45,148 bases of DNA. Source: a virus. A model generated the notes under the pieces. That model was not told the origin of the DNA. It saw nothing but the letters and a program-made list of their open reading frames with translations, and did not search any database. The translations under genes and the position numbers were made by a program. The stretch is taken from positions 1 through 45,148 of IMG/VR virus record IMGVR_UViG_3300046512_000220; one strand, given 5' to 3'. The first letter of the stretch is position 1; each line of letters opens with the position of its first letter. Shown piece after piece: positions 14,391-37,082 of this stretch.

Positions 14391-14845
14391 CTGCTGATAC
14401 CCCTCCCCAGCTCACGCCACAAAAATACCTGATCCTCGCGGACGCGGTAATTTTCCTGGACACCAATGAGGTGGTTCCCAAGGATATCTCGGACCCTCGG
14501 TATGCCGCTTACCTTGACGATGCCTTTCCTTCGCCGCAGGTCTCGACGGTGGTGTCGGTGTTCCAGCAGATCATGGATACCCAGGCCCGCCAGCTCGGCT
14601 ACGACGACATCAGGACGGCTGTGACCTACGCAGACGAGCCTGTGGTGCCCCGCTTCCAGGCGGAGGGCATAGCGTTCCGCAAGTGGCGGTCTCAAGTCTG
14701 GGGCCTCGCGTACATGCACCTGGATCAGCTCACGTCGGCAGGCGTGCCCGTACCTAAGTTTTCCGAATTGCTGCCGCTGATCCCGAGCCTCGAGCTGGAT
14801 GCGGCAGCAGAAGACCAGGGGGCGCCGACGGCGCCCGATCCATAG
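14387..14845 (+). CDS. Putative tail fibre assembly protein
   Basis: This 152-aa protein starts in ATGA overlap with the tail fibre stop. Genes in this position usually encode chaperones or short partners of the fibre. The central part, QLGYDDIRTAVTYADEP followed by FRKWRSQVW, is typical of the DUF4376/XkdW-like proteins paired with phage fibres. Two tandem terminators stand downstream. The role is inferred from context and resemblance. Confidence 0.6.
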   Translation: MTADTPPQLTPQKYLILADAVIFLDTNEVVPKDISDPRYAAYLDDAFPSPQVSTVVSVFQQIMDTQARQLGYDDIRTAVTYADEPVVPRFQAEGIAFRKWRSQVWGLAYMHLDQLTSAGVPVPKFSELLPLIPSLELDAAAEDQGAPTAPDP

Positions 14846-14889
14846 GAGGTGCCGCCCGTGTAGACCGAAAAGGAAACAAGCATCGAGAT

Positions 14890-14911
14890 CCGCCGACAGG
14901 CGGTTTTTTTT
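14890..14911 (+). terminator. Intrinsic terminator after tail fibre genes
   Basis: The stem CCGCC/GGCGG (14890-14894 with 14899-14903), loop GACA, is followed by eight T. It lies 44 bases after the fibre assembly stop and just before a second hairpin. Confidence 0.85.
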
Positions 14912-14912
14912 C

Positions 14913-14935
14913 GCCCGCTTCATGCGGGCATTTTT
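14913..14935 (+). terminator. Second tandem terminator before lysis genes
   Basis: The stem GCCCGC/GCGGGC (14913-14918 with 14924-14929) is followed by ATTTTTC. With the hairpin at 14890 it makes a double terminator directly upstream of the endolysin ATG. This makes late readthrough or antitermination likely for lysis gene expression. Confidence 0.7.
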
Positions 14936-14945
14936 CATTGGGGTC

Positions 14946-15584
14946 ATGGATAAAACAACCTTTCAGAAGGCGGCGGGCATCAGCTCGGCGTTGGCCGACC
15001 GTTGGTGGCCACACGTTGACGCCGCGCTATTCGAGTTCGGCATCCTGCTTCCCCACCGGGTGGCGGCCTGGATTTCCCAGGTCGGCCATGAATCGAAGGG
15101 CTTCTCCTCACTGGCGGAGTCCTTCGATTACTCGGTGGAGGGGCTGGTGCAGACCTTCGATCGCCTGCCGCGAGATCTCGCCGCCAAGCTCGGCCGCCAG
15201 CAGGGCGAGCGCATGGTCCCGATCGAGCGCCAGGAACGCATCGCCAGCATCGTCTACGCGGGCCGGTACGGCAACGGATCAGCGGCCACGGGGGACGGCT
15301 GGCGATATCGCGGGCGCGGTCTCAAGCAGATCACGTTTCCGGACAACTACGGGCCGTGCGGGCATGCCCTTGGTGTGGATCTGTTGGCCAATCCGGATCT
15401 GCTGGCAACGGATGACCGGCTGGCGGCGCGCTCGGCGGCCTGGTTCTGGTTCGACAAGAGCTGCAACCAGCTGGCGGACGCCGGCGACCAGCGCGCGCTC
15501 ACGAGGCGCATCAATGGTGGCCTGAATGGTCTAGAAGACCGCATGCAGCGCTACGTACGCGCGCGGCAATACATCAACGGGTAA
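14946..15584 (+). CDS. Endolysin, GH19 chitinase/lysozyme type
   Basis: This 212-aa endolysin cleaves glycan strands of peptidoglycan at lysis. It has the GH19 layout: Glu49 in QVGHESKGF and Glu58 in LAESFDYS as probable catalytic acids, followed by DGWRYRGRGLKQIT, the substrate-binding motif. There is no signal peptide or transmembrane start, so it should need the holin for export. I chose ATG 14946 with GGGG at -5; an in-frame ATG at 14922 would start inside the terminator hairpin. It opens the lysis cassette of endolysin, holin, Rz and Rz1. Confidence 0.9.
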   Translation: MDKTTFQKAAGISSALADRWWPHVDAALFEFGILLPHRVAAWISQVGHESKGFSSLAESFDYSVEGLVQTFDRLPRDLAAKLGRQQGERMVPIERQERIASIVYAGRYGNGSAATGDGWRYRGRGLKQITFPDNYGPCGHALGVDLLANPDLLATDDRLAARSAAWFWFDKSCNQLADAGDQRALTRRINGGLNGLEDRMQRYVRARQYING

Positions 15585-15593: not shown

Positions 15594-15890
15594 ATGCAAG
15601 AGCACGAACGAAATCTGTACATGCTGGCCATCCTGGGGGCGATGGTCGGGCTGGGGAAGCTGCTGGCCAGCGATGAGCACATCACCGTGCGCCTGGTGCT
15701 GGCCAGGGCCATGATGGGCTCGGCCACCTCCATGGTGGCCGGCGTGGCGCTAATCCAGTTCCCCGACCTCAATCCGGTGGCGCTGCTGGGGCTGGGCAGC
15801 GCCCTCGGCATTGTTGGGGCGCAGGCGCTGGAGGCCTACTTCAAGCGTCGAATGCGGGAAGGCGAGCGCCGGAATGGCAAAGGTGCTTGA
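15594..15890 (+). CDS. Holin
   Basis: This 98-aa protein has three hydrophobic segments, at about residues 9-25, 38-56 and 60-80, with a basic C-terminus (KRRMREGERRNGKGA). It follows the endolysin by nine bases and overlaps the Rz start. Size, membrane pattern and position identify a small class I-like holin, similar to the LydA/holin_3 group. It would form membrane lesions that release the endolysin. Confidence 0.8.
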   Translation: MQEHERNLYMLAILGAMVGLGKLLASDEHITVRLVLARAMMGSATSMVAGVALIQFPDLNPVALLGLGSALGIVGAQALEAYFKRRMREGERRNGKGA

Positions 15891-16431
15891 GATCCTCGCC
15901 GCATGGAAGGGCCGCCTGGTGGCGGCCTTTTTCATTGCGATGGCCGGCGCCCTGGCCGGTGGGGCCTTCGCCTGGTGGGCGCAAGGCAATCGATATGAAG
16001 CCCAACTTCAGCGGCTGCGGGCCGACAGTGCGGCGGCGGCCGCTGCTGCCTCGGCGCGGTACGGCCAGCTGGAGTCGCGGTACCGCAAGCTCGAAGGCGA
16101 TGCCCGCGATGCGGTTGCGGCCGTTTGGGAGAAAGCTCAAAAGGAGAGAGAAATTGAAAGCGCTGCTGCAGCTGCCGCTCGTGCTGAGTATCTTGCTGGC
16201 ACTCGCCGGCTGTCCCTCGCCGTCCGTTCCTGTTCGACTGGACCCGCCGGCTCGGCCGCAGATCCCGCCATTGCCGCCCCACCTGGTGAAGCGCGAGCCG
16301 AACTTGCGCCAGAGACTGGAGCAGCTCTCGATGCCATCGTCCGCGATGGCGATCAAGGCATCCGCGACGCCAACGCCTGTATCGACCTCTACAACGGGGT
16401 CCGAGGCGCGTTGAACGCCGGCGATCAGTAA
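15874..16431 (+). CDS. Rz-like i-spanin
   Basis: This 185-aa protein has an N-terminal membrane anchor at about residues 14-35 (VAAFFIAMAGALAGGAFAWW), then an Ala/Arg/Glu-rich coiled-coil periplasmic region, the standard i-spanin plan. It starts inside the 3' end of the holin gene and contains the Rz1 gene in another frame. It would join with Rz1 to fuse inner and outer membranes in the final step of lysis. ATG 15874 gives the anchor the right position. Confidence 0.85.
   Translation: MAKVLEILAAWKGRLVAAFFIAMAGALAGGAFAWWAQGNRYEAQLQRLRADSAAAAAAASARYGQLESRYRKLEGDARDAVAAVWEKAQKEREIESAAAAAARAEYLAGTRRLSLAVRSCSTGPAGSAADPAIAAPPGEARAELAPETGAALDAIVRDGDQGIRDANACIDLYNGVRGALNAGDQ
16154..16414 (+). CDS. 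Rz1-like o-spanin lipoprotein, nested in Rz
   Basis: This 86-aa protein lies wholly within Rz in a different frame. It starts with TTG 16154, preceded by a near-perfect ribosome site AAGGAGAG at 16141-16148. The product has a lipoprotein signal, MKALLQLPLVLSILLALAGC, with lipobox LAGC, so the mature protein begins at Cys20. It then continues with the Pro-rich stretch typical of Rz1 (RLDPPARPQIPPLPPH). It would be an outer membrane lipoprotein that pairs with Rz. The nested layout matches lambda and many other phages. Confidence 0.85.
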   Translation: MKALLQLPLVLSILLALAGCPSPSVPVRLDPPARPQIPPLPPHLVKREPNLRQRLEQLSMPSSAMAIKASATPTPVSTSTTGSEAR

Positions 16432-16568: not shown

Positions 16569-17360
16569 ATGGCAAATCCCATCATCCCGTGGATCGGCGG
16601 CAAGCGTCGCCTCGCGGATATCCTCCTGCCGCGGTTCCCTGCGCACAAGTGCTATGTGGAAGTATTCGCGGGCGGAGCGGCTCTCTTCTTCCTGCGGCCG
16701 CCGGCGGACGTGGAAGTCGTCAATGACATCAACGGCGAGCTGGTGAACCTCTACCGCGTGGTGCAGAACCACATGGAAGAGTTTGTGCGGCAGTTCAAAT
16801 GGGCGCTCACCAGTCGAACCGTGTTCCAGTGGCTCAAGGACACGCGGCCGGAGACGCTAACGGATATTCAACGCGCGGCGCGGTTCTACTACCTACAGCA
16901 GAATTGCTTCGGCGGAAAGCTGGAAGGGCAGACCTTCGGGACGGCCACGACGACGCCCCCAGGGCTGAACCTGCTCCGCCTCGAGGAAAATCTGTCTGCC
17001 GCGCACCTGCGGCTGTCGAGCGCATTTGTCGAGAACCTCGATTGGGCGGATTGCATCGGCCGCTACGATCGACCGCACACTCTCTTCTACCTGGACCCGC
17101 CATATTGGGAGACGGAGGGCTATGGCGTTGACTTTCCCTTTGAGCAGTACGAGCGCATGGCCGAGATGATGGCTGGCATTCAGGGTAAGGCGATCATCAG
17201 CCTGAACGATCATCCGGAGATCCGCCGCGTGTTCGGGCGCTTCGAGATGGAAACGCTCGATATCAAATACACGGTCGGCGGCGGCGGAGCTGGGGCCCAG
17301 CGGAAGGAGGTCGTTATCTACAGCTGGGACCGTGGTCAGGAGCCGGCCGGGCTGTTCTGA
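16569..17360 (+). CDS. dam: DNA adenine methyltransferase (Dam/D12 class)
   Basis: This 263-aa protein is a D12-class N6-adenine methyltransferase. Motif X is PWIGGKRRLA (residues 7-16), motif I for SAM binding is EVFAGGAALF (31-40), and the catalytic motif IV DPPY is at 176-179. Length and motif order fit Dam-like phage enzymes, whose usual target is GATC; the target is not visible from sequence. It is the last + strand gene of the late region, after the lysis cassette, and has its own candidate repressor operator. It may protect phage DNA from restriction or mark replicated DNA. Confidence 0.85.
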   Translation: MANPIIPWIGGKRRLADILLPRFPAHKCYVEVFAGGAALFFLRPPADVEVVNDINGELVNLYRVVQNHMEEFVRQFKWALTSRTVFQWLKDTRPETLTDIQRAARFYYLQQNCFGGKLEGQTFGTATTTPPGLNLLRLEENLSAAHLRLSSAFVENLDWADCIGRYDRPHTLFYLDPPYWETEGYGVDFPFEQYERMAEMMAGIQGKAIISLNDHPEIRRVFGRFEMETLDIKYTVGGGGAGAQRKEVVIYSWDRGQEPAGLF

Positions 17361-17777: not shown

Positions 17778-18116
17778 TCAGTCGATGACGTCGAGCTGGC
17801 CGGGGGTAATGCCCAGCGCGGCGGCGATCTTCTCGCGGGTGGCCTGGCGCATCTTCCCCTCGCTGTTCTCCAGCTGGGCGTACGACGGCTGGCTGATGCC
17901 CATGCGCTCGGCCACTTCCTTCTGGGTCAGTTTCAGGTGCTCGCGCCAGGCGCGGGCCGGGCTAAGGCCGTCCACCATGAGGCGGCGCGCGACCTCGTGC
18001 GGCACCAGGTCGCGGTCCTCGGCGCGCTGCGCCACGTAGTCAGCGTACGGGATGACGACGAAAGCGGGATGGCCCTGCGCGTCGTTGATGATCTGAATGT
18101 GTTGCGGTGTGTCCAT
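17778..18116 (-). CDS. XRE-family antitoxin
   Basis: This 112-aa protein has a Cro/C1-type helix-turn-helix at residues 63-103 (LTQKEVAERMGISQPSYAQL) after an N-terminal part that should bind the toxin (PAFVVIPYADYVAQR). It is downstream of a RelE-like toxin on the same strand, as in HigBA-type order, and followed by a strong terminator. Such antitoxins neutralise the toxin and repress their own promoter. A stabilisation role fits the plasmid lifestyle. Confidence 0.8.
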   Translation of the reverse strand: MDTPQHIQIINDAQGHPAFVVIPYADYVAQRAEDRDLVPHEVARRLMVDGLSPARAWREHLKLTQKEVAERMGISQPSYAQLENSEGKMRQATREKIAAALGITPGQLDVID

Positions 18117-18177
18117 TGTGTGCCTCTGTTCGTTGAGGTGAATTCGGTTGGGGCCGGTTTCCAGCCGGCCCCTTCGG

Positions 18178-18435
18178 TTAGTAGGTGTTTCCGTTTCGGA
18201 CCTTCACCTCTTGCACTTCAATCACCCTGATCCCGCCATCCCAGTCAAACAACACTCTGTAGTTTCCAACTCGGAGGCGGTAGCCGTATTCGTGTCCGAC
18301 TAGCGCTTTGACGTTCCTTGTATTCGGCATCTCCTTGAGTTCGTCTACTGCCGTGAAGATCTTTGTTTGAGTCTGCCGGTCTAGCCGACTCGCCTGTTTC
18401 AGGGCTTTTTTCGCCCAGTGGATCGCGTTGTCCAT
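18178..18435 (-). CDS. RelE/ParE-superfamily toxin
   Basis: This 85-aa protein has the RelE fold signature: an N-terminal helix pair (HWAKKALKQASRLDRQ), LVGHEYGYRLRVGNYRVLFD, then a last strand with VIEVQEVKVRNGNTY. RelE-like toxins cleave ribosome-bound mRNA; ParE-like ones hit gyrase, and the sequence alone does not decide. ATG 18435 lies seven bases after a perfect -10 box, so the message may be leaderless. An antitoxin follows 61 bases downstream. An ATG 120 bases further up would read through the promoter and is rejected. Confidence 0.8.
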   Translation of the reverse strand: MDNAIHWAKKALKQASRLDRQTQTKIFTAVDELKEMPNTRNVKALVGHEYGYRLRVGNYRVLFDWDGGIRVIEVQEVKVRNGNTY

Positions 18436-18745: not shown

Positions 18746-19381
18746 TCATCGTTCGAATCGTTGGGGCGGAATGGCGCCGGGCCGCTTCACCTTGATCCAG
18801 TCGGGTGATCGGGCGCCGGACTGGTAAGTCGAGCCGGCGCGCTTGCCGACCACGCCCTCGAGCTGGAGCGGCCCGAGCGCCTGGCTGTAGAGCCATGCGC
18901 CATCGTCGATGGCCTGCACCCGCAGAAAATGGGCGGGCCGCTTGGCGAACAGTTTGGCCAGCGCGGCGCGGCGCTGCTCGATGGGCTCGGCGCGCAGATC
19001 CTGGCCGCCGGTGGCCAGCTGGTCGAAGGTGCAGTACGTCACGAGGTCGGCGCCGGCGTACCAGCGGCGCCGCCGCGCCCTAGCGTGGACGCGCTCGAAG
19101 TCGCTGCGGCCCAGCTCGTCCAGGACGCAGATCTCGCCGTCCAGGATCACGCCGGCCGGCAAGGTGGCCAGCGTGGCGACGATCTCTGGAAACCAGCCGG
19201 TGGCGTCGGCGCCATTGCGCGTGCGCAGCTGCGGCGCCGGCCCGGTGCTGGCCAGCATGCGATAGCCGTCGTACTTGATCTCCCACGTCCAGTCGGGCGC
19301 CGCCGGGATGGCGTGGCGCTCGATGAGCAGCATGGGCGAGAGCTGGGCCAGCGGCGGGGCGGGTGGCCGCTGGCGGGGCAT
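18746..19381 (-). CDS. ATP-dependent DNA ligase, adenylation domain only
   Basis: This 211-aa protein has the nucleotidyltransferase motifs of ATP-dependent DNA ligases: motif I EIKYDGYR with adenylated Lys36, motif III ILDGEICVLD at 79-88, motif IV EGVVGK at 175-180, and motif V WIKVK at 195-199. It ends twelve residues after motif V, so the C-terminal OB-fold is missing. It is closest to the LigD ligase-domain group. It starts four bases after the DUF2188 stop on the same strand; an upstream ATG at 19447 would overlap that gene. A LexA-type box lies upstream of the pair. Confidence 0.8.
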   Translation of the reverse strand: MPRQRPPAPPLAQLSPMLLIERHAIPAAPDWTWEIKYDGYRMLASTGPAPQLRTRNGADATGWFPEIVATLATLPAGVILDGEICVLDELGRSDFERVHARARRRRWYAGADLVTYCTFDQLATGGQDLRAEPIEQRRAALAKLFAKRPAHFLRVQAIDDGAWLYSQALGPLQLEGVVGKRAGSTYQSGARSPDWIKVKRPGAIPPQRFER

Positions 19382-19385
19382 GGCT

Positions 19386-19604
19386 TCAGCCGGGAACGTT
19401 GCGCGGATCGTTGCCGAAGGAATTGCGCTCGCGGATCTGTCCGTCACGGCCGTGGATCAGCAGCTCTACCTTGTCGCGCTGCGCGCGGCTGGTGCCGGCC
19501 TTGATCGCTTCCTCTTGCGTCGCGTGGGTGGTGCGCTGGCCGCCGCCGGCGGCTTCGACTGCCCAGCTGTCGCCGGCGGGCACTACGTGGATATTGGCGG
19601 CCAT
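19386..19604 (-). CDS. DUF2188 family protein
   Basis: This 72-aa protein matches the DUF2188 pattern: IHVVPAGDSWAVEAAGG, a central ATQEEAIKAG helix, and a C-terminal ELLIHGRDGQIRERNSFG. The family is small and of unknown role, often found near stress and DNA repair genes. AGGAG is well placed before its ATG. It is the first gene of a two-gene unit with the ligase and is divergent from the 67-aa gene at 19716. Confidence 0.75.
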   Translation of the reverse strand: MAANIHVVPAGDSWAVEAAGGGQRTTHATQEEAIKAGTSRAQRDKVELLIHGRDGQIRERNSFGNDPRNVPG

Positions 19605-20027: not shown

Positions 20028-20056
20028 TTGCACAATCGTTTTTCATAACATACTAT
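20028..20056 (+). promoter_or_regulatory. Promoter of the kfrA-like gene with repeated CATAACA sites
   Basis: TTGCAC (20028-20033), a 17-base spacer and TACTAT (20051-20056) form a good sigma70 promoter. CATAACA occurs at 20044 and 20058, and CCATAACA (20057-20064) is mirrored by TGTTATGG at 20088-20095 over the start codon. KfrA proteins repress their own promoter by binding such sites, so autoregulation is likely. CCCCCTTTACCC is repeated upstream at 19932 and 19993. Confidence 0.6.
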
Positions 20057-20091
20057 CCATAACATAACGTAACGAAACAAGGATGGTTGTT

Positions 20092-20976
20092 ATGGCACGG
20101 GAAGCAAACATCACGCAGGAACAGGTCAACGCCGCCGCCGATGCGCTGCGCGCGGCCGGCACCAAGCCCACGGTGCGCGCCGTACGCGAGCGCCTCGGCA
20201 CCGGCTCCAACGCCACGGTGATGCGTCTGCTGGAAAACTGGAAAGCGGGGCAGGTCCGCGTGGCCGAGGCGCCCGTCACGCTGCCGGCGCCGCTGCAGCG
20301 CGCCCTGGTGGACTACCTCACGCAGGCCGTGGCCGAGCAGAAGCAGGAGCTGGGCGCCGAGCTGGCCGAGCAGAAGCAGCTCAATGCGGATCTGGGCATT
20401 GAGAACGAGCGCCAGGCCGACGACATCGAGGGGCTGCAGGCCCAGCTGGAGGCCATGCGTTCGGAGCGCGACGCGATGACGGGCCGCGTGGTGCAGCTCG
20501 ATGCGGATCTGCGCCGGGTCACCGCCGAGGCCGAGCAGGAGCGCGTGGCGGCCGAGGGGGTGCGCACCGAGCTGGCCAAGGCGCAGCTGCGCCTCGAAGC
20601 GCTCCCGCGTCTGGAGGAGGATCTGGCCGCTGCGCGCGCCGATCTCGCGCGGGAGCGTGCCGGCCGGGCGGAAGACCATGACCGCGAGCGGTCGGCGCGT
20701 GCAGCGGCCGAGCAGGCGGCGGCGGTGGCGGTGGCCCGGCAGGAGGGGGAAGCCAAGGCGCGCGAGCGCCTGGAGGCAGATCTGGCGGCTGCGTCGGCGA
20801 GGGAGGCTGCGGTGGCCGACCAGGTGAAGGATCTGACCCATCGCCTCGCCGAGGAACGCATGGCCCACGTCAAGACCGGCCGGGATCTCAAGGTCGCCAA
20901 CGAGCAGCTGCAGGGCTTGCGTCGCACGAAGCTGGCTGGCCGCAAGCCATTCAACGCGCCGCCGGCGGACAAATAA
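20092..20976 (+). CDS. kfrA: KfrA-like plasmid DNA-binding coiled-coil protein
   Basis: This 294-aa protein has an N-terminal helix-turn-helix typical of KfrA_N (ITQEQVNAAADALRAAG, then GTGSNATVMRLLENWK), followed from residue 75 by some 190 residues of almost continuous coiled coil rich in Ala, Glu, Arg and Gln. KfrA is a plasmid protein that forms nucleoid-like fibres and helps stable partition, best known from IncP plasmids. ATG 20092 is preferred because AAGGA (20079-20083) is eight bases away; an in-frame ATG at 20083 touches that site. Its presence supports the plasmid state of the prophage. Confidence 0.85.
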   Translation: MAREANITQEQVNAAADALRAAGTKPTVRAVRERLGTGSNATVMRLLENWKAGQVRVAEAPVTLPAPLQRALVDYLTQAVAEQKQELGAELAEQKQLNADLGIENERQADDIEGLQAQLEAMRSERDAMTGRVVQLDADLRRVTAEAEQERVAAEGVRTELAKAQLRLEALPRLEEDLAAARADLARERAGRAEDHDRERSARAAAEQAAAVAVARQEGEAKARERLEADLAAASAREAAVADQVKDLTHRLAEERMAHVKTGRDLKVANEQLQGLRRTKLAGRKPFNAPPADK

Positions 20977-20982
20977 TTTGCA

Positions 20983-21000
20983 TTGCCGGCGGGCCGGCAA
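20983..21000. terminator. Hairpin between convergent kfrA and the small gene at 21011
   Basis: TTGCCGGC and GCCGGCAA form a perfect eight-pair stem with a two-base loop, seven bases after the kfrA stop. Only short T or A runs flank it. Its place between convergent genes suggests a bidirectional terminator. Confidence 0.55.
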
Positions 21001-21010
21001 AATGAGCCGG

Positions 21011-21259
21011 TCAGCCCGTGAGGCTGTTGCCCCGCGCCCGCAGCACGGTGCCGGCAGCGTCCTGGTCGTCGTCAGCCGTCAACAGCACGACAGTCCCTGC
21101 AAAGGCCTGGATTACTTCTACGGCGCGCACCGGGCCGGTGTGATCGCCGCCCACCAGCACCTCGGCCGGCACCTTGCCAAAGCCATCGTAAGAGGCCTTT
21201 TGCAGCGCTGCGATTAACTGGTCGACGGTCAGTCCGACAGTTTCAAGAATCTTTGCCAT
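21011..21259 (-). CDS. Unknown small protein downstream of repA
   Basis: This 82-aa protein begins MAKILETVGLTVDQLIAALQ and includes VPAEVLVGGDHTGPVRAVEV. An AAGGAT-like stretch is near the start on the + strand only, so its ribosome site is unclear. It lies 56 bases beyond the repA stop, and one copy of the 18-bp palindrome is in that gap. It may be expressed with repA or from its own promoter. I do not recognise the family; a role in plasmid maintenance is suggested by context only. Confidence 0.5.
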   Translation of the reverse strand: MAKILETVGLTVDQLIAALQKASYDGFGKVPAEVLVGGDHTGPVRAVEVIQAFAGTVVLLTADDDQDAAGTVLRARGNSLTG

Positions 21260-21296
21260 TTGACATAAGGATCATTATGTGTCTTTTTGGGCACAT

Positions 21297-21314
21297 GTGT
21301 CCCAAGTGGGACAC
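21297..21314. promoter_or_regulatory. 18-bp palindrome, copy 1 (candidate parS/ParB or regulator site)
   Basis: GTGTCCCAAGTGGGACAC has perfect 8-bp arms around AG. It lies one base beyond the repA stop, between repA and the next - strand gene. The same sequence occurs at 22748 (inverse centre) and 24565. Confidence 0.7.
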
Positions 21315-21315
21315 T

Positions 21316-22326
21316 CTAGGCCCAGTCCTTCACGCGCTTTGGTACGCTGGTCAGCGACGGCTCCATGAATAGGCCGGCCGGCTTCGGTGCAGCCTTGGCC
21401 TGTGGGTAGACCGTCAGTACCTTCTTGAGCGCCGGCAGGAAGTTCTCTCGAAACTTCTTCACGGTCTTGTATTCGCTGCCGAATTGCTGATACAGCGCAT
21501 CCCACGGTACCGTGGTCGGCCTGGTCAGGGAAAAGTTGCGATAGGTCATCCAGCAGTAAAGGTCGAGTGCCATTGGCGACGATCGGAGCGCACGCAGCGC
21601 TCGAAGGTCGACCGGCACAGGATTGGCCTTGGTTTCCTCGAAGAACTGCTCGCCCAGGACAATGTTTGACTGCCATAGCCCCGCCTGGCCGGGGTTGCTG
21701 GAGGACCACCAGAGGTTGGCGTTTTTCACCACGTCCAGCTTTTGCACGCGGAGATTCTCATCGACGGAGGCGCCGCCAATCTGCGCCGAGATATCGGCGA
21801 GAAACAATCGCATCATCTGGTCCCTAAGACGAGTTCGAGCGCCGTTTTTCCCGCCGCTGCGATGCTCGCCAATGCCCAGCTCGGCCATGAAGGCGGCAAG
21901 GCTATCGCCGAGGATGATGGTGCGCTCGTTCGTGCGAACGATTTCCGCCCCAATCCATGCGAGCATTAAGCGGGGGTAGGACCCGTAAGGGTAGCCAACG
22001 CGATCCCACTCCCCTGCCCTATTTTTGGCGTGCCCCTGTTTGATGATCAGGCTGGTTTCGCCGACTTTCCGCTCCCAGACCTCAAGGGACCGCAGCGGCT
22101 CCCGATACGGCAAGGTCGCCTGTACCAGGGTGCGGCCCATGTAGCCCGTCATGCCGGCCCGGAAAGCGTCCTCTGCTTCAATGGCGCGGGCTTCTTCCGA
22201 GAGGCGATTGTCGATGACAGGCGATACCGCATTGCGGGGCGTGTAGCTGCGCCTGCGCTTCGGTTTGGCGGGCGCCTCTGCAGGCGTCGGCGTCAACTCA
22301 AATGCGCCGAATTCCTTCTCGTCCAT
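21316..22326 (-). CDS. repA: Plasmid replication initiator RepA
   Basis: This 336-aa protein resembles the plasmid RepA family (PF04796-type). Recognisable parts are GYPYGSYPRLMLAWIGAEIV near residue 110, then TIILGDSLAAFMAELG, and a C-terminal region with PMALDLYCWMTYRNFSL and VPWDALYQQFG. The first 50 residues are basic and unstructured (KPKRRRSYTPRN). Such proteins bind iterons, melt the origin and recruit host helicase. The gene faces away from an array of six iterons 260 bases upstream, with a further inverted iteron 60 bases before the ATG that can serve for autorepression. Confidence 0.85.
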   Translation of the reverse strand: MDEKEFGAFELTPTPAEAPAKPKRRRSYTPRNAVSPVIDNRLSEEARAIEAEDAFRAGMTGYMGRTLVQATLPYREPLRSLEVWERKVGETSLIIKQGHAKNRAGEWDRVGYPYGSYPRLMLAWIGAEIVRTNERTIILGDSLAAFMAELGIGEHRSGGKNGARTRLRDQMMRLFLADISAQIGGASVDENLRVQKLDVVKNANLWWSSSNPGQAGLWQSNIVLGEQFFEETKANPVPVDLRALRALRSSPMALDLYCWMTYRNFSLTRPTTVPWDALYQQFGSEYKTVKKFRENFLPALKKVLTVYPQAKAAPKPAGLFMEPSLTSVPKRVKDWA

Positions 22327-22386
22327 CGCTCGCGCCCTTCCCTTTTGGTATCGAACGGAAACATAGCATGCGTTGTGTACCCCCTT

Positions 22387-22402
22387 CGCATAAGTGGGGG
22401 CG
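22387..22402 (-). promoter_or_regulatory. Inverted iteron upstream of repA (probable autorepression site)
   Basis: CGCATAAGTGGGGGCG is the complement of CGCCCCCACTTATGCG, one base different from the origin iteron CGCCCCCACATATGCG. It lies in opposite orientation to the six iterons and 61 bases upstream of the repA ATG, the usual place for an operator of a Rep gene. Confidence 0.65.
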
Positions 22403-22502
22403 CACTGTTTTGATGTTCAGGTTTGTCATCAGCTCGTCGAGCGCATCGCGAAATGTGGGCAACCGGAGGTTGTCCACTGTAGCGATGTGCCCTACTAGCA
22501 AA

Positions 22503-22556
22503 GCTAAAAGTAAACCTACTGCTAAAAGCAAAAACTAGATGCCGGATTTTTGTGTG
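22503..22556. other. AT-rich segment with GCTAAAAG repeats (candidate unwinding element)
   Basis: GCTAAAAG occurs at 22503 and 22521 in a stretch much richer in A and T than its neighbours, ending near the iteron array at 22584. Plasmid origins have such an easily melted region beside the iterons. It may also contain the repA promoter on the - strand. Confidence 0.5.
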
Positions 22557-22583
22557 TTTCGTCAATGGCTTAGGTGCAATCTC

Positions 22584-22744
22584 CGCCCCCACATATGCGC
22601 GAGCCGCCCCCACGCATGCGAAAAATCGCCCCCACATATGCGGCACTGTCGCCCCCACATATGCGCGGAGCCGCCCCCACATATGCGGGGAAAAGTGACG
22701 CTATCCACAGGCCTTGTCCACAGCCATGCGCCCCCACATATGCG
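22584..22744 (+). other. Plasmid replication origin: six iterons with DnaA-box-like sites
   Basis: Six copies of the 16-mer CGCCCCCACATATGCG start at 22584, 22605, 22627, 22650, 22672 and 22729; only the second differs (CACGCATGCG). Spacings of 21-23 bases place the first five on one DNA face, at about two helical turns. Between copies five and six are CTATCCACA (22701-22709) and TTGTCCACA (22714-22722), each one base from the DnaA box TTATCCACA. The array lies between parB and repA. With the AT-rich segment and RepA gene it makes a typical theta-type oriV. Confidence 0.9.
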
Positions 22745-22747
22745 AAA

Positions 22748-22765
22748 GTGTCCCACTTGGGACAC
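22748..22765. promoter_or_regulatory. 18-bp palindrome, copy 2
   Basis: GTGTCCCACTTGGGACAC is the complement of copies 1 and 3. It lies three bases after the last iteron and four bases before the parB stop codon. The position beside the origin favours a centromere role, or a switch linking partition and replication. Confidence 0.7.
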
Positions 22766-22769
22766 CTCG

Positions 22770-23660
22770 TCAGGCGCCCTCTTCCAGCAGCTCGCGCAGG
22801 AATGTCTGGAGCCTTTCGGCCTTCTCCTGCGGCAGCGCTTTGTGCGAGACCTTGATGATCAGGTCGGTCGGAGTCCGGGCGATTGTGCCGATACGGGCTT
22901 TTCCCTGGGTCAGGATGATCGGCTTGGCTGCTTCGCTCTTGCTAGCCGGTTTCTCGGCCGGTTGCTGGAGGAATGCAACCGCCCTACCCTGCTCTAGCTT
23001 GCCGGCCTCGATCAGATCCAGGGCCTCATTCAGACGATCTGCCGAGGCGGGCGAATCTTTCAGTGCTTGAGCGATGTCGCTGGCCGCCCTTCTTCCGATC
23101 AGGTCTGGCGCCTTGCGCAGACGCTCAATCGCTGCTGGTGGCAGATCCCGGAATGCCAGGTAGCGATACAGCTCGGAGCGTGCGAGATTCAGGGCCTTGG
23201 CTAAGTGGCTGCGCTTGGGAAACTTCTCTTCCAGCTGGAGAATGCCTTCTGCTACCTCGAAGTCCGTCAGACCTTCGCGGTCGATGTTCTCGGACAGCGC
23301 CATGGCAGCGGCTTGGCCGTCGTCCGCATCAACTACGATAGCCTCGATGGTTGGCTTGTTCAGTAGGCGGTGCGCTCGGAGGCGTCGCTCGCCGGCGATC
23401 AGCTCGTAGTCGTCGCCGTGCGCGCGGACGGTGATGGGCTGCGTCAGGCCTATCTGTGCGATGGATTTTGCCAAGGCTTGGATGCCCTCTTCCGCGAACG
23501 TGATCCGGGGCTGGAAGCGATTTGGCATGATCCGGTCGAGGTGGATCTTCGTGTGTTGGCGCCCTACGTCGAACACCTCTTCGTAGTCAGCTTCACGGTG
23601 CTGCTGGATGTTGGCTGCGGCCTGCTGCGCTAGCAGTGCCGCCTTGACGCTCTTGCTCAC
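22770..23660 (-). CDS. parB: Partition protein ParB
   Basis: This 296-aa ParB has the canonical layout. The N-terminal CTPase domain includes NRFQPR (48-52 area) and box II GERRLRAH (90-97). ENIDREGLTDFEVAEG follows at 124-139, then a helix-turn-helix near 148-170 (KRSHLAKALNLARSELYRYL). The C-terminal dimerisation part ends LQTFLRELLEEGA. It starts in ATGA overlap with parA, so the two are one operon. It should bind a centromere, for which the 18-bp palindromes at 21297, 22748 and 24565 are candidates, and is probably the plasmid segregation protein. Confidence 0.9.
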   Translation of the reverse strand: MSKSVKAALLAQQAAANIQQHREADYEEVFDVGRQHTKIHLDRIMPNRFQPRITFAEEGIQALAKSIAQIGLTQPITVRAHGDDYELIAGERRLRAHRLLNKPTIEAIVVDADDGQAAAMALSENIDREGLTDFEVAEGILQLEEKFPKRSHLAKALNLARSELYRYLAFRDLPPAAIERLRKAPDLIGRRAASDIAQALKDSPASADRLNEALDLIEAGKLEQGRAVAFLQQPAEKPASKSEAAKPIILTQGKARIGTIARTPTDLIIKVSHKALPQEKAERLQTFLRELLEEGA

Positions 23661-24487
23661 GCTGCGCCCTCCTCTTCCAGGACATTGTCGGTCAGCTTCA
23701 GCTTGAGCGACTTGGCCAGTGCGGCAGCGAGCTGGCGGAACTGGCGCGCGGGCTTCGAGCTGCGATCGATGCCGTGGGCGCTGGTCTTCATGACCACTGC
23801 CTGGCGCACGGCGGTGCCCTGCGAAATCTTCTCAGGCAGTAGCTTGCCGAAAGTGTTCTCGGCCTGGCCGGCGAGCAGCTTGCAAATGGTCTGACGGTCG
23901 TCGTACTTGATGAGCAGCGCGCCGAGCATTTCCAGATTCGGGTTGATGCGGCGGATCTGCGCTACTTTTTTCAGCAGATCCTCGGCGCCATAGAGGCCAT
24001 ATTGATCGCCTGCTTCCACAGGCACGATGACGTGCGTGGCGGCTGCAAGCGCATTGCTCGCCAGCAGCTTCAGGCTCGGCGGGCAGTCGATCAGGATGAC
24101 GTCGAACACGGAGTCAGCCGGCAGTAGCTTGCTGCGCAGCTCTTCGTTCGGTCGCGGCGAGAGGTCCTTAAGCTCGTCCTCGGCCTTGCCCAAGGCGAGG
24201 CTGCCGGAGATCAGGCAGACGCCCTCGATGGTGGTTTCTTCCTGTACGGCGGCGGCTAGGAGCGAGTGATCGCCGGTCAGCAGCTCGGCGGCCGAGACGT
24301 CGACCTGGGCGGGGTGGATCTTGCCGATGTGAAGGGAAGCGTTGGCTTGAGGGTCGAGATCCACGACCAGGACCCGATTGCCTTGGCGGGCGAACTCGCT
24401 GGCCAAGTTGATGGTGGAGGTCGTTTTGCCGCAGCCGCCTTTGTGATTGACGATGGCGATGACTTTCGCGTGTTTGAACTCGCTCAT
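23657..24487 (-). CDS. parA: Partition ATPase ParA
   Basis: This 276-aa ATPase has deviant Walker A KGGCGKTT (16-23), Walker A' VVDLDPQANAS (41-51) and Walker B VILIDCPPS. It lacks the long N-terminal helix-turn-helix of type Ia plasmid ParA, so it is close to Soj-like or short ParA. It would form DNA-bound gradients that move the ParB-centromere complex. ATG 24487 is preferred because MSEFKHAKVIAIVNHKGG is the usual start; an upstream ATG at 24553 would add 22 non-conserved residues. One 18-bp palindrome lies 78 bases upstream, near its promoter. Confidence 0.9.
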   Translation of the reverse strand: MSEFKHAKVIAIVNHKGGCGKTTSTINLASEFARQGNRVLVVDLDPQANASLHIGKIHPAQVDVSAAELLTGDHSLLAAAVQEETTIEGVCLISGSLALGKAEDELKDLSPRPNEELRSKLLPADSVFDVILIDCPPSLKLLASNALAAATHVIVPVEAGDQYGLYGAEDLLKKVAQIRRINPNLEMLGALLIKYDDRQTICKLLAGQAENTFGKLLPEKISQGTAVRQAVVMKTSAHGIDRSSKPARQFRQLAAALAKSLKLKLTDNVLEEEGAA

Positions 24488-24564
24488 GTGTCCGTGTGCG
24501 TTGTTGTTAATGTTCGTGAACGATATACGGCGTTCGCGAGGATGACAAGGCACAAAACAAAAAA

Positions 24565-24582
24565 GTGTCCCAAGTGGGACAC
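24565..24582. promoter_or_regulatory. 18-bp palindrome, copy 3, upstream of parA
   Basis: GTGTCCCAAGTGGGACAC, identical to copy 1, stands 78 bases before the parA ATG, inside the 131-base gap between parA and the gene at 24619. It may be the parAB operator as well as a ParB site. Confidence 0.7.
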
Positions 24583-27185: not shown

Positions 27186-27935
27186 TTATTCGGTGGTGGT
27201 GGCGTGGCGCGCCTTCGCTTCGGCGTAGTGCTGATCGCTGCAAAAGCCCTGCTTCATCCACAAAATGTGAGACGGGCGACCGCAGAAGCACTGAGGCATG
27301 GGCTCCGACTGATTGGCGTCGAACCAGGCCTGCGCCTCCTTTCCGTAGGGGGCGTTTTCGTCCGGGATGAACCCTGGGCCGCAGAGCGTGTTGTGAATCC
27401 ACGCCATGGCATCCTCGGCGCCTTTGCCGTGCTGCCATTCGATCCAGGCGGCCTGCATGACAACGCAGTGGTCGTGGACGATGTTGGAGAGGGACTTGGC
27501 TAATTCCTCCCAGCGCGCAGCTGCAGCTGCAGCTGCGTCGGAGCTGCCCCGCAGGAAGGAGCGGCTGGCATGCTCGGACACTGTTGTGTTGAGCGCCTTG
27601 CGTGCGTGGAGCATCGCGCAGACGTTGGCCGCCTCTATGTAGTCGCCTTGGCACAAGGCCTCCGCGAGCATCTGTGAGAGGCGCTCGACGGAGAATTTGC
27701 GCACGTCGTCCCATTCGCGGCGTCGCTTCACGCGATCCGTGGCCATGCGCGCCTTCTGTGCGACGGAGAGCGCCTCGATGGCCAAGTCGTCGGCATTCGT
27801 GCGCGGGGGTGCGGTGCGTGGGCCTGGTGATGTGGCGGCCAGCAGCAGGCCGCGCTGGTTGGAGGGCAGGCGGGAGCCGATGCTGTTCATGGAGGCGGCC
27901 GGGGAGTGTTGTTTGGGCAGGCGTGGGCGTGTCAT
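27186..27935 (-). CDS. Conserved phage protein with C-terminal Cys motif, unknown function
   Basis: This 249-aa protein begins with a disordered basic region (MTRPRLPKQHSPAASMNSIG) followed by helices rich in Arg, Ala and Glu. The last 40 residues hold CFCGRPSHILW and a further Cys-His (FCSDQHYAEA), a pattern like a small zinc ribbon. ATG 27935 is 20 bases after the stop of the ParB-like gene; farther upstream starts would overlap that gene by up to 430 bases. I recognise no function; a nucleic-acid-binding role is possible. Confidence 0.55.
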   Translation of the reverse strand: MTRPRLPKQHSPAASMNSIGSRLPSNQRGLLLAATSPGPRTAPPRTNADDLAIEALSVAQKARMATDRVKRRREWDDVRKFSVERLSQMLAEALCQGDYIEAANVCAMLHARKALNTTVSEHASRSFLRGSSDAAAAAAARWEELAKSLSNIVHDHCVVMQAAWIEWQHGKGAEDAMAWIHNTLCGPGFIPDENAPYGKEAQAWFDANQSEPMPQCFCGRPSHILWMKQGFCSDQHYAEAKARHATTTE

Positions 27936-27955
27936 GTTTGACCCCAAGAGAAGTG

Positions 27956-30061
27956 TTATTGGGCGAGAAGCGAAGCGAGGCTCTTGCCTTCTGCAATGGC
28001 ATTCGAAACCCAAGCAGGCCGTTTGCCGCGACCCGTCCAAGTGTTGCCCTTGTCGTCGCGATAGCGAACGTGGATCGATGCCGGGCGCTTCGTGGTAGGC
28101 GTGACCTTCTTTGCCTGGATCGCTTTGGGCTTCGGCGCTGCCTTGGTGGCGTGCGTGCGCGCTGCGGTCGGCTTCGTGGTTTTCTTTGGGCTGGTCGGGC
28201 CGCGGAGGATCTTCGGCAGCCAGCCCGTGCCGCCGAGCTTCACGGCGGCCGCTTTCGCGAGCTGGTCCTTCTTCATCGTGGCCAGCGACTCCGCGTCCTT
28301 CTTGCTCGTGGCCTCGACAACCGCCTCGACGGCCAGGGCCTTCGAAACGTGGTTTAGGTAGCTGGCAGGGGTGGCGGTCCACCACTGCGCCATGTCCAGC
28401 TCGACCGCCTCGGCAACAGCATCAGCAGCGTGCGGTAGCGCGGCAGTCTGTACGGCGCTCGTGCCCGTGGCGGTGCAAAGTGCGAGCAGCTGCAGGAGAT
28501 CCTGCTGGGGGAGGGCAATGAGGTGCGGAAGCAGATCCTTCTCGGACTTGGGCAGGCCTGCCAGGATCTCGCCGCGTGCCTTCTGCAGCTTCTTCCACGC
28601 GTCGGTGTCCTTGAGGTCGTCGGCGATCGAGGGCAGGGGCTCCATCTTGTTCTCGACCTGCGCGTGCACAGCACTCCCCGCGCCGGCGTAGTGCTGCCCC
28701 TTGCGGAACAGCCGGCTGACAAGGCTGTGCACCAGCACCGCGAGGGCGATGTGCGGTTGCTCCACCAGGTGCAGCTGCAAGGCGGCCGTCCGGTGTGCCG
28801 TGAGTCGTCGCGCGAGGCTTTCGGACAGCGCCGGCTTCTTGGGCTTCGCTTCCTTGGCGGTGCCCGAGGCCGCCGAGGCGCCGCCAGGCGATGCGGCTTT
28901 TTGCACGAGGCCGCGAAAAATCTGCGGCGTGCCGCTGTCATCGACGGATACGATGGCGCCGGCCTTGGCCTTGTCGGCGTCCGCCCACGTGCGGAAAGAC
29001 GTGTTGAGTGCCGTGATTTTCCCCTGGATGGCATCAAGCTGTTCGTCCTGCTCGGTCCAGGCCTCGCTGTCCTCGAGCCCGTTGCTCTCTAGGGCGTCCA
29101 TGGCTGCGACGCATGCGTCGCGCTCGCGTTGCAGGGCGTCCAGCTCCTTCTTCTGGGCCTTGGTTGGCTGGTCATTGGCCGGCATCACGGAGCCGTATCG
29201 ATACGTGTGATAGCTGCGGAACTCGTGATCCACTTCCACCCAGGACCAGCCTTCGCTGCGCACTTCGGATGCAATCGCCTCGAGCTTGGCGTCCGCGAGC
29301 TGCTGCAGCAGCGTCTGGTCGGAGAGATAGCCATTGCCGGCATCGCTGAAAAGGTCGCGCTCGACGCGGCCGCCGGCGGCCTCATAGGCCTCAATGCCGA
29401 CGAGCTTTGCCAGGGAGCTACCGCGTACCTCTACCTCGCCTTTAGCGAGCAGGCGGCGCAGGCTTTCCGGCTTGCGCTGCCACGGGGTCGGGTTTTCTTT
29501 CCAGACCCGCTCCTGGGCCTTGTGGTCGTCCGTGATGGCCATCGCCATGAGCTGCTCGAGCGAGGCTTCGCCGGCGCGATAGATCTGGATCATCTTCGGC
29601 GATACGTTGGCCAGCTTCAGGCGGCGCAGCACCACGAGTGGGGTTACGCCGAATCGTGCGGCGACGTCCTCCACCTGGACGCCCTGGTCCACCATCTCTT
29701 TGAATGCTTCGAACTCGTCCGCCGGATGCATCGGCTCGCGCATGGTGTTCTCGGCCACGCTGTCTTCGAGTGCCGTGGCGTTGTCGCGTACCAGGCAGGG
29801 GGTGGGGTAGTCCTCGGCAAAGGCGCCGCGTTCCACGTTGATCTTGATAGCGCGCCACCGGCGGCCGCCGGCGTTCACTTCAAAGCGACCGGTTGCGGCG
29901 CCGTCGACCAGCTCCGGCGTCACCACCAAGTTTTGCAGGATGCCGGAGTGGAGAATCGACGCCGCCATCGCTTCGAGATGCGAGGGCTTTGTCTTGCGTG
30001 CGTTTCGCGGGGAGAGAAACAGGCTCGAGAAGGGAATAAGTTGGTGATGGCTAGTGGTCAT
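27956..30061 (-). CDS. ParB-like protein with C-terminal H-NS DNA-binding motif
   Basis: This 701-aa protein has a ParB/Srx-type N-terminal domain: RNARKT at 19-24, GGRRWRA at 65-71 in place of GERRxRA, and AENTMREPMHPADEFEAF at 103-120. A helix-turn-helix follows near 129-150. The middle is helical and unlike classic ParB. A Lys/Pro/Ala linker at about 610-660 leads to a C-terminus that matches the H-NS DNA-binding motif, TWTGRGKRPAWV at 674-685. It is separate from the true ParB at 22770 and belongs to the leftward early operon. A role in early gene control or DNA organisation is inferred. Confidence 0.8.
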   Translation of the reverse strand: MTTSHHQLIPFSSLFLSPRNARKTKPSHLEAMAASILHSGILQNLVVTPELVDGAATGRFEVNAGGRRWRAIKINVERGAFAEDYPTPCLVRDNATALEDSVAENTMREPMHPADEFEAFKEMVDQGVQVEDVAARFGVTPLVVLRRLKLANVSPKMIQIYRAGEASLEQLMAMAITDDHKAQERVWKENPTPWQRKPESLRRLLAKGEVEVRGSSLAKLVGIEAYEAAGGRVERDLFSDAGNGYLSDQTLLQQLADAKLEAIASEVRSEGWSWVEVDHEFRSYHTYRYGSVMPANDQPTKAQKKELDALQRERDACVAAMDALESNGLEDSEAWTEQDEQLDAIQGKITALNTSFRTWADADKAKAGAIVSVDDSGTPQIFRGLVQKAASPGGASAASGTAKEAKPKKPALSESLARRLTAHRTAALQLHLVEQPHIALAVLVHSLVSRLFRKGQHYAGAGSAVHAQVENKMEPLPSIADDLKDTDAWKKLQKARGEILAGLPKSEKDLLPHLIALPQQDLLQLLALCTATGTSAVQTAALPHAADAVAEAVELDMAQWWTATPASYLNHVSKALAVEAVVEATSKKDAESLATMKKDQLAKAAAVKLGGTGWLPKILRGPTSPKKTTKPTAARTHATKAAPKPKAIQAKKVTPTTKRPASIHVRYRDDKGNTWTGRGKRPAWVSNAIAEGKSLASLLAQ

Positions 30062-30087
30062 GATGCGTTGTCTTTGGTTGTTATTGG

Positions 30088-30951
30088 TCAGGCGGTCAGG
30101 CGCGCGCGAATGTCTTGCAGCTCGTGGCGCAGCAAATCGATCTCGGCGTGTAGCGCGCCGATATGCTTCGCGCCCCGGCGAGCCTCGCGGCTGCGCAGAT
30201 TGCGAGGCACTTCGCCTTTTGCTTCGGCGTAGCGCGTCAGCGCGTCGAGTTCGTCCAGGACGTCGGCGATCGTGGATTGGTAGCCGCGGATGGTGTCCTC
30301 GCGGTGCTGGGCGAGGCGGATTTGCTCCTGCACTTCGGTGTCGGTCATTGGTCGGACAAACAGCGCGTGGGGGCCTTCCTCGGTGTCGTAGATCTCCAGC
30401 AGGTTCCACCCATCGCCTTGAGGCGGCGTGGGTTCCCATGCGAGGCAGCTGGTGCCTTCATCGAAGACCTTCTCGACCAGTGCTTGGTCTGCGCAATCGG
30501 TCTCCATGGAAACGAAGGCGGCACGGAATCCGAGGCCTCGCAGAACAAGGTCGAGATCGGTTCCTTCTGGAAAGCTCGGAAGGGCAGGGTGGATGCAAAA
30601 CCCGTCCGCATCGCGCGGGTTGGTCGGGCGCATCAGATCCTTCCGGATGCTGTCGAGGTCCACGGGGACTGGCTCCGATCGCGGAAAGTTCGCCTCCGCG
30701 TCGAGTTCAGTGCGGATGGCTTGGCCGTCAAACGGCAGACCGTTTGCCAGTTTGCTGGCGACGAAGCGCAGTGCGGCCGCGCTCTCGGGATGTGTGGTGC
30801 CGAGTGGCATGGTGCATGCCAGCAGGCGCGCTGCGATGGCTGTCTGGCGATCACGGCACAGGCGGTGTGCCTTGCGGCGGGCGCGCGCAATGGTGGCAAC
30901 CGCGATGGCGGCGAGTGCGATGAAAACAAACAGGGAGGATAGGGAGGACAT
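30088..30951 (-). CDS. Membrane-anchored coiled-coil protein, unknown function
   Basis: This 287-aa protein has one N-terminal membrane helix (SSLFVFIALAAIAVATIARA), then a soluble region with several acidic patches and a C-terminal coiled coil (DALTRYAEAKGEVP to the end, LLRHELQDIRARL). The topology suggests a cytoplasmic domain tied to the inner membrane. It is read after the 141-aa gene in the leftward operon. I do not recognise the family. Confidence 0.6.
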   Translation of the reverse strand: MSSLSSLFVFIALAAIAVATIARARRKAHRLCRDRQTAIAARLLACTMPLGTTHPESAAALRFVASKLANGLPFDGQAIRTELDAEANFPRSEPVPVDLDSIRKDLMRPTNPRDADGFCIHPALPSFPEGTDLDLVLRGLGFRAAFVSMETDCADQALVEKVFDEGTSCLAWEPTPPQGDGWNLLEIYDTEEGPHALFVRPMTDTEVQEQIRLAQHREDTIRGYQSTIADVLDELDALTRYAEAKGEVPRNLRSREARRGAKHIGALHAEIDLLRHELQDIRARLTA

Positions 30952-32342: not shown

Positions 32343-33062
32343 TTACAGTTCCAGCGTGGCTGTCACGATGATGCCGCAGATGCGGTCGTCTTTGTGCACG
32401 CGCAAGAATCGGTTCGGCCACTCAGGATTGAGCGCTTCCAGGAAGGGCTCGCCGTCGACCAAAACCAGCTTTTTGAACGTTGCCTCGTTGCCGTTGCGGC
32501 GAACGATGACGAACTTTCCAGGCTGTGCCTCGAGGTCCGGATTAACGAACAGCAGCATGCCTTCTGGGAACGACGGCGAGATCCCTGCGGGCGCCGTCAT
32601 GGAATAGCCTTTGACCCTTAAAACGAAGCCACGAGGTCCCAGTTCCTTGTGGCAGTAGTGATACGCCTGCGCTGTTGCAGGTTCGAAGTTATCTGCGATT
32701 TCTGTCCACATCCCCGCTTGTACCCATGAAATCTCGGGGTAAGACCGCGGCCTCATGTCAGGCCCGGCTTCGAAGTTGTCCCCGGATGTCGGGAAATTGT
32801 AAGGGTCGGACTCGATGTGTGCCGCCCCCTGCGAAAGAGGGGCATCGTCCGCATCATGGGCACGATCGAGCCATCCCGCCGGTGTCTGGGTCAGCTCTTC
32901 TATTCGGCGGGCCTTCTTCTCACCAAAGCTTTTGCTGCCTCTGGTGAGGCCTGAGATCTCGCCCTGGTTCATGCCCGTCTGGCGCACGAACTCAGCCTGC
33001 GTGCCGTACTTCTGGGTGATCAGGAGTTGGAGGCGCTTGCGCCGGTTTTCAGCGATGGTCAT
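32343..33062 (-). CDS. LexA/CI-type prophage repressor
   Basis: This 239-aa repressor has an N-terminal helix-turn-helix (TQAEFVRQTGMNQGEISGL, 21-39) and a C-terminal S24 peptidase domain. The self-cleavage site is Ala116-Gly117 (WVQAGMW), the nucleophile Ser154 in VKGYSM, and the general base Lys197 in ATFKKL. RecA filaments should therefore trigger its cleavage, making the prophage inducible by DNA damage. It is divergent from the cro/ydaS gene with three operators between. It likely controls the leftward and rightward early promoters and perhaps dam. Confidence 0.9.
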   Translation of the reverse strand: MTIAENRRKRLQLLITQKYGTQAEFVRQTGMNQGEISGLTRGSKSFGEKKARRIEELTQTPAGWLDRAHDADDAPLSQGAAHIESDPYNFPTSGDNFEAGPDMRPRSYPEISWVQAGMWTEIADNFEPATAQAYHYCHKELGPRGFVLRVKGYSMTAPAGISPSFPEGMLLFVNPDLEAQPGKFVIVRRNGNEATFKKLVLVDGEPFLEALNPEWPNRFLRVHKDDRICGIIVTATLEL

Positions 33063-33149: not shown

Positions 33150-33434
33150 ATGGATGAGCTACTGGACTACCTCAACAGCCTGGACAAGGCGCAGCGGACA
33201 GCCTTCTGCATCGCGGTCGGGACCACGGAAGGCTACCTGCGTAAGTCGATCAGTTCGGGCGGACGCTTCAAAAGCGAGCTTTGCGTGCTGATCGAGCGCC
33301 ACGCGGAGGGCAGGGTCACGCGCAAGGATCTACGTCCCGATTGGGCGCGGGCATGGCCGGAGCTGTACTACACGGAGCCGGGACTGTGGCGGATACCGCA
33401 GCCCGAGTGGGAACGGATTCGGGCCGCAACATAG
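33150..33434 (+). CDS. Cro-like regulator (YdaS family)
   Basis: This 94-aa protein is the first gene of the rightward operon. It has a short helix-turn-helix (LDKAQRTAFCIAVGTTEGYL) and the tail VTRKDLRPDWARAWPELY, typical of YdaS/Cro-type regulators. YdaS proteins act like Cro, shifting expression to the lytic programme. The product starts MDELLDYLNSL at the first ATG after the promoter. The next gene, a YdaT-like protein, completes the YdaST pair. Confidence 0.8.
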   Translation: MDELLDYLNSLDKAQRTAFCIAVGTTEGYLRKSISSGGRFKSELCVLIERHAEGRVTRKDLRPDWARAWPELYYTEPGLWRIPQPEWERIRAAT

Positions 33435-37071: not shown

Positions 37072-37082
37072 GCCAGTACATT
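37054..37082 (+). promoter_or_regulatory. Candidate late promoter (PR'-like)
   Basis: TTGAAA (37054-37059), a 17-base spacer and TACATT (37077-37082) overlap the stop of the putative Q gene. Two terminators follow within 200 bases, before the late genes. This layout matches Q-controlled late promoters. Confidence 0.6.

Follow-up and report, generated by a model that had tools for sequence, protein, structure and literature searches.

Three kinds of virion on one replication and immunity chassis in a probable lineage of circular phage-plasmids

How is a temperate phage inherited that carries head, tail and lysis genes next to a plasmid replication and partition module? The question is raised by an IMG/VR virus record (IMGVR_UViG_3300046512_000220), whose whole length of 45,148 bases was analysed and is called the window here. 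An earlier note, made from the letters of this stretch, had described a repA gene, an iteron origin, parA, parB and a kfrA-like gene around positions 20028-24582, had seen no integrase, and had concluded that the prophage is kept extrachromosomally. Pfam matches between 20083 and 24553 and seven iterons confirm the plasmid genes (Table 1), and the head, tail and lysis genes are also present, outside 20028-24582. We describe the window as the sequence of a complete circular temperate phage-plasmid, a reading in which we have high confidence, and place it in an unnamed lineage of circular phage-plasmids whose members share one chassis and differ in their virions.

Replication, partition and the search for an integrase

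The nearest RepA (86% identity) is encoded on plasmid unnamed3 of the environmental isolate Cupriavidus oxalaticus X32. This plasmid is a complete circular and separate replicon of 37,950 bp which also carries ParAB, CI, CII and virion genes. IMG/VR holds this element (as G002) and two further relatives, G001 (36,365 bp, circular) and G003 (38,838 bp), and scans of viral contigs with ParB and RepA profiles returned no relatives beyond these three. The two ends of the window are identical over 127 bp, and the window is therefore a closed circle of 45,021 bp. The same 127-bp overlap is found in G001, and this suggests that the assembler left a k-mer overlap on a closed circle, rather than that the DNA has a biological terminal repeat. 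The reading frame of the major capsid protein crosses the circular join as one frame of 310 codons. The circular ends, a RelE-type toxin/helix-turn-helix (HTH) antitoxin pair and a three-copy 18-bp inverted repeat are additions to what the earlier note had seen.

RepA of the window is 86, 83 and 86% identical to the RepA proteins of the three relatives. The iteron CCCCCACNNATGCG occurs seven times in the window (an inverted copy at 22387, five copies at 22586-22687 and a sixth direct copy at 22731), against 0.03 copies expected from whole-genome base shuffles. All four elements have nearly the same layout, in which the inverted copy is followed after 199 bp by five iterons at 21-23 bp spacing and, 57-58 bp further on, by the sixth; the origin is strongly constrained. 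In iteron plasmids, an inverted iteron upstream of repA is the site at which RepA represses itself, and by analogy the inverted copy is probably an autoregulatory site. Comparison with the start used in the relatives favours a ParA start near 24498. The ParA proteins of G003 (L012 10791-11867) and of the C. oxalaticus plasmid (L005 4784-5617) are 98.6% identical, compared with 45-89% for most other chassis genes, suggesting a recent exchange of parA alone. KfrA is 72% identical in G001 and 56% in G003; on the C. oxalaticus plasmid it finds no more than a short match, and the gene seems to be truncated there (L005 957-1379; about 65 residues align), whereas the window, G001 and G003 have KfrA at full length.

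Copies of the 18-bp inverted repeat (GTGTCCCAAGTGGGACAC) flank repA and parAB in the window. Across the elements the repeat takes the form GTGTCCC, 4-5 bases, GGGACAC (18-19 bp), with three copies each in the window, G001 and G003, two in the C. oxalaticus plasmid and none elsewhere in these genomes. Its position and copy number make parS a somewhat favoured assignment. The repeats could instead be bidirectional transcription terminators and not a centromere, a possibility that we hold to be real but weaker and that touches this one part and not the phage-plasmid reading. In favour of terminators, the copies sit where the repA, parB and early operons end, and the one at 24565, with A and T runs on its flanks, is scored as a terminator; against this, neither strand has a T-run directly after the stem at 21297, what is kept between elements is the sequence and not just the stem, and the restriction to two or three copies per genome also speaks for a centromere.

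Profile searches of the window, in which the positive controls were detected, gave no match to Phage_integrase (PF00589), Resolvase (PF00239) or ResT-TelK (protelomerase), so that the earlier observation on the integrase was borne out; no tyrosine integrase or serine recombinase was found across the four elements either. A single bacterial-genome scan revealed no integrated copy of the window element, and just two distant RepA matches (39-41%), on 5-kb contigs. The site-specific integrase of an integrating lambdoid phage is thus missing from the matches in the window. Nevertheless, the CI, Cro and CII control region resembles that of integrating lambdoids, and three relatives of the virion module (G005, G011 and G013) bear integrases, as if the element were an ordinary integrating lambdoid phage with an integrase that escaped the searches or belongs to an unknown type, and with RepA and ParAB for lytic replication alone. 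This is very improbable given that all four elements lack a recognised recombinase, that one relative was deposited as a complete circular plasmid, and that an integrated prophage would have little use for ParAB, the conserved sites beside it and an addiction pair.

Extrachromosomal maintenance, as concluded in the earlier note, is therefore well supported by the circular contig, by the lack of an integrase in the searches, and by the occurrence of the same module on the complete circular C. oxalaticus X32 plasmid. Phage-plasmids are temperate double-stranded DNA tailed phages which typically lack an integrase, carry plasmid replication and partition genes and, by definition, have been demonstrated to be episomal as well as infectious (PMC12977533). 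The window has head, tail, lysis, CI and CII genes, gives no PF00589 or PF00239 match, and carries RepA, iterons and ParAB, and one relative is a circular plasmid. The form of the window inside its host, probably a member of the Burkholderiaceae, is very probably that of a small circular plasmid.

A shared chassis with three kinds of virion

Patchy nucleotide homology between the window and the three relatives (blastn) runs from about 14,913 in the endolysin gene (starts at 14913-14924) to 37,163, just past the Q-like gene, and beyond these borders no nucleotide homology was found in any of the three. Proteins common to the four elements are the endolysin, the holin, KfrA, RepA, ParB, ParA, several early proteins, CI, Cro, the products of the CII-region genes, a putative replication protein and the Q-like regulator. 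Outside this chassis half, a single protease-type match (40% over 204 residues) is all that the window has in common with the C. oxalaticus element.

The chassis carries three kinds of virion: that of a lambda-type siphovirus in the window, a contractile-tailed one in G001 and the C. oxalaticus element, both of which encode a tail sheath, and that of an HK97-type siphovirus in G003, where no sheath match was found and where an HK97-type capsid, portal and terminase are accompanied by a tape measure protein of 1,468 residues. Head genes differ even within the contractile pair, whose tail genes are 49-77% identical but whose terminase and portal are only 32-33% identical. Among relatives of the window virion genes, G005 (portal 50%), G011 (portal 43%) and G013 (tail tip 45%) differ from the window in that each has a tyrosine integrase and none has RepA_C; most other virion-gene relatives are short fragments that are uninformative on lifestyle. 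An exchange in which virion cassettes passed between this plasmid chassis and phages that integrate would fit this distribution.

Immediately past the Q-like gene, the border at which the cassettes differ coincides with a conserved promoter-terminator element, which is present once in each of the four genomes and is absent from phage N15. In each genome it is found at the end of the Q-like gene and comprises TTGAA[A/T]-N17-TA[N]ATTTC, a conserved ACGCTGTG...GTGCGT stretch and a stable hairpin with a T-run (z -3.0 to -4.0 for the hairpin after the late promoter). The lambda pR'-tR' layout resembles this arrangement. Any virion operon placed downstream would share the same late switch, which suggests why cassettes could be swapped at this point. 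One of the four Q-like homologues, that of G003, matches Phage_antitermQ (PF06530; 2e-4, 21.7 bits, below the cut-off of 26). We consider it likely that the fixed chassis (RepA with iterons, ParABS, CI/CII, the Q-like gene with the late promoter-terminator, and lysis genes) acts as a socket, into which whole cassettes, siphovirus or contractile and lambda- or HK97-type, are plugged between the late terminator and the endolysin, and that the plasmid lineage is independent of particle type.

The window could also be a plasmid with an integrated or decayed prophage, its RepA/ParAB and phage genes being separate elements joined by chance. The RepA family is common on conjugative plasmids and phage-derived plasmids are already known, yet in four elements RepA-ParAB is conserved together with CI, CII, the Q-like gene and the lysis genes, no gene for conjugation was recognised, no integrase was found, and the virion set of the window appears complete, all of which leaves a chance association highly unlikely. 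We also considered and rejected a chassis made up of a resident plasmid with a prophage inserted into it, since RepA-ParAB travels together with the immunity, late-switch and lysis genes.

For the phage-plasmid reading, the observed parts would fit the following model of regulation and segregation. In the lysogen, CI would silence the lytic genes, and RepA would fire the iteron origin and limit itself via the inverted iteron upstream of repA. ParAB would segregate the circle, most likely via the three-copy inverted repeat, and the RelE-type pair would punish plasmid loss. Upon induction, the Q-like protein would read through the terminator after the conserved late promoter, and the downstream virion cassette, whichever its kind, would be switched on. 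Several points weigh against this reading. The window is known from its sequence alone, and replicating phage DNA may also give a circular contig. The assembly of G003 is not circular, and the members found are four only. The Q assignment depends on one sub-threshold match, and the inverted repeat, which has T-runs at some copies, may be a terminator rather than parS.

Gene content of the window

The features of the window are listed in Table 1. The product of 35244-36356 is probably a second replication protein, which may serve lytic growth; its low-confidence AlphaFold2 model (predicted local distance difference test score 52) has an N-terminal helix-helix-wing pattern, and repeats forming a lytic origin inside the gene were sought and not found. 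The gene-transfer-agent-like tail tip described in the earlier note was recovered as a match to Rcc01698_C.

Table 1. Positions of the chassis, virion, lysis and cargo features in the window.
Feature	Position	Strand	Evidence
KfrA-like DNA-binding protein	20083-20976	+	KfrA_N PF11740 1.8e-17
18-bp inverted repeat, copy 1, candidate parS	21297-21314		Downstream of repA; syntenic in G001, G003
RepA replication initiator, RepA_C family	21316-22326	-	PF04796 1.3e-27
Inverted iteron copy, upstream of repA	22387-22400	-	199 bp to first array iteron in all four elements
Origin: five iterons at 21-23 bp spacing and a sixth 57 bp further	22586-22744	+	Geometry almost identical in all four elements
18-bp inverted repeat, copy 2, candidate parS	22748-22765		Between iterons and parB; syntenic in three relatives
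ParB	22770-23660	-	ParB_N PF02195 1.6e-22; relatives 65-78% identical
ParA	23657-24553	-	AAA_31 ParA-type ATPase 7e-44; relatives 80-87% identical
18-bp inverted repeat, copy 3, candidate parS, also terminator-like	24565-24582		Upstream of parA; syntenic in three relatives
CI-type repressor, S24/UmuD-like C-terminal part	32343-33062	-	phrog_4 4.3e-29; relatives 58-66% over 152-190 residues
Cro/YdaS-like repressor	33150-33434	+	phrog_35 3.8e-9; relative annotated YdaS
CII-like activator	33622-34212	+	phrog_163 1.4e-20
Probable second replication protein	35244-36356	+	36-40% identical in all relatives; no named family
Q-like late regulator	36676-37071	+	Conserved in all four elements
Promoter-like TTGAAA-N17-TACATT, then terminator hairpin, pR'/tR'-like; chassis right edge	37054-37155	+	Alignment
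Terminase small subunit	38244-38840	+	phrog_57 4.2e-30
Lambda GpA-type large terminase	38827-40899	+	phrog_15 2.6e-198; 26% to N15 TerL
Lambda-type portal	41147-42778	+	phrog_21 2e-123; 26% to N15
Head maturation protease	42808-44115	+	phrog_53 5e-96; 30% to N15
Decoration/scaffold-type head protein, gpD position	44171-44509	+	phrog_673 2.5e-19
Major capsid protein, first part; continues 1-476 across join	44565-45148	+	310-residue frame on circle; phrog_1005 4e-47
Tail tape measure protein	2655-5474	+	phrog_2854 5.6e-42
Tail tip protein, gene-transfer-agent-like C-terminal domain	7362-10856	+	PF13550 2.3e-31; PF23666 Rcc01698_C 1.3e-13
GH19 endolysin, lysis; chassis left edge	14799-15584	+	PF00182 1e-14; 68-72% in three relatives
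Holin	15594-15890	+	phrog_175 5.8e-35; 60-64% in relatives
Third lysis-cassette gene, spanin-like by position only	15887-16414	+	Conserved after holin in two relatives; no family match
D12-class adenine DNA methyltransferase, cargo	16569-17360	+	PF02086 1e-24; no homologue found in three relatives
HTH antitoxin, type II toxin-antitoxin pair	17778-18116	-	HTH_3 3.1e-12
RelE/ParE-type toxin, addiction module	18178-18435	-	phrog_1213 RelE-like 8.1e-20; ParE_toxin PF05016 4.3e-6

For the toxin-antitoxin pair (17778-18435, minus strand) no match was found in the three relatives. The cargo region between the lysis genes and kfrA also encodes a protein with an ATP-dependent DNA ligase domain (18746-19447, minus strand). 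A protein of 827 residues (27956-30439, minus strand), which was not found in the three relatives, combines a ParB_N-type domain with an H-NS-type C-terminal DNA-binding domain and is distinct from the partition ParB. The neighbouring reading frame (27186-28385, minus strand) is a conserved early gene of the chassis, whose C-terminal part briefly matches phrog_18739 and the PADLOC DpdH profile. The start of this frame overlaps the ParB_N/H-NS gene, and the true start of the frame therefore probably lies lower.

Comparison with known systems

The types of phage-plasmids distinguished previously are AB, P1, N15, SSU5-related and cp32 (PMC12977533). The window has phage-plasmid features at the level of sequence, yet it matches none of the types tested. 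A tblastn search with RepA against 50,697 phage records, a collection in which the presence of the P1, SSU5-related and AB groups was not checked, returned only one 3.9-kb Salmonella-phage record, and thus no replication initiator shared with these groups; megablast of positions 17-27 kb of the window against known phages gave no match.

N15 (AF064539) resembles the window in the lambda-type order of its head genes on a plasmid prophage, in CI/Cro/Q-type control, in ParAB and in Dam, and its TerL, portal and protease are remotely similar (26-30% identical) and in the same order. The earlier note had regarded a lambda-type head, a gene-transfer-agent-like tip and an IncP-like KfrA/RepA module as a combination not known as a named group; a lambda-type head on a phage-plasmid is not new in itself, since N15 is already a lambda-headed phage-plasmid. 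N15 differs in that it is a linear plasmid with a protelomerase and a large multifunctional RepA, whereas the window is circular and has no ResT-TelK match; the RepA proteins are unrelated (no blastp match) and the similarity of ParA is distant (26%). Apart from its lambda-type head genes, the window therefore shows neither the protelomerase and linear prophage nor the RepA of the N15 group. While the observations of the note held and its argument for novelty did so only in part, the stronger novelty lies in the swapping of virion cassettes on one plasmid chassis, which could not be seen from the window by itself.

The KfrA/RepA module had also been called IncP-like. KfrA was confirmed (PF11740), but it is not diagnostic of IncP since kfrA also lies beside a RepA-type initiator on pYKBM023, and an assignment of RepA to IncP was rejected, as RepA matches PF04796 only and no match to the IncP initiator TrfA was returned. 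The nearest plasmid relatives of this RepA are other Burkholderiales RepA plasmids (55-57% identity in Burkholderia and Paraburkholderia; 43% for pYKBM023). Unlike the window, the plasmids examined are conjugative or have genes for conjugation, and the regions read contained no virion set, iteron or inverted repeat.

The closest known element remains plasmid unnamed3 of C. oxalaticus X32 (NZ_CP038638.1, 37,950 bp), which is alike in RepA (86%), ParA (87%), ParB (78%), CI, Cro/YdaS, CII, the Q-like gene, endolysin, holin, iteron geometry and late promoter, and unlike in its contractile-tailed virion cassette, its different head and its annotation as a plasmid only. In the open-access literature, no paper came up that names this element or describes the combination; a listing as a singleton elsewhere is possible. 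The typing of phage-plasmids usually relies on whole gene content, so that a single lineage with more than one particle type would be broken up into unrelated singletons. The conserved iteron geometry, the three-copy repeat and the late promoter-terminator provide marks by which the chassis can be recognised, and the lineage offers a testable model of an episomal prophage that changes its particle and retains plasmid replication and immunity. Well-related phage-plasmid types come mostly from Enterobacterales (PMC12977533), and the lineage described here adds one from outside this order.

A precedent for both virions under one plasmid-maintenance strategy, in that case a linear one, is given by the telomere phages, which form one cluster of siphoviruses and another of putatively contractile phages (PMC12042878). 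VP882 and phiHAP-1, which stand beside the N15 cluster, are linear and have a protelomerase, whereas the lineage described here is iteron-based and, where closed, circular.

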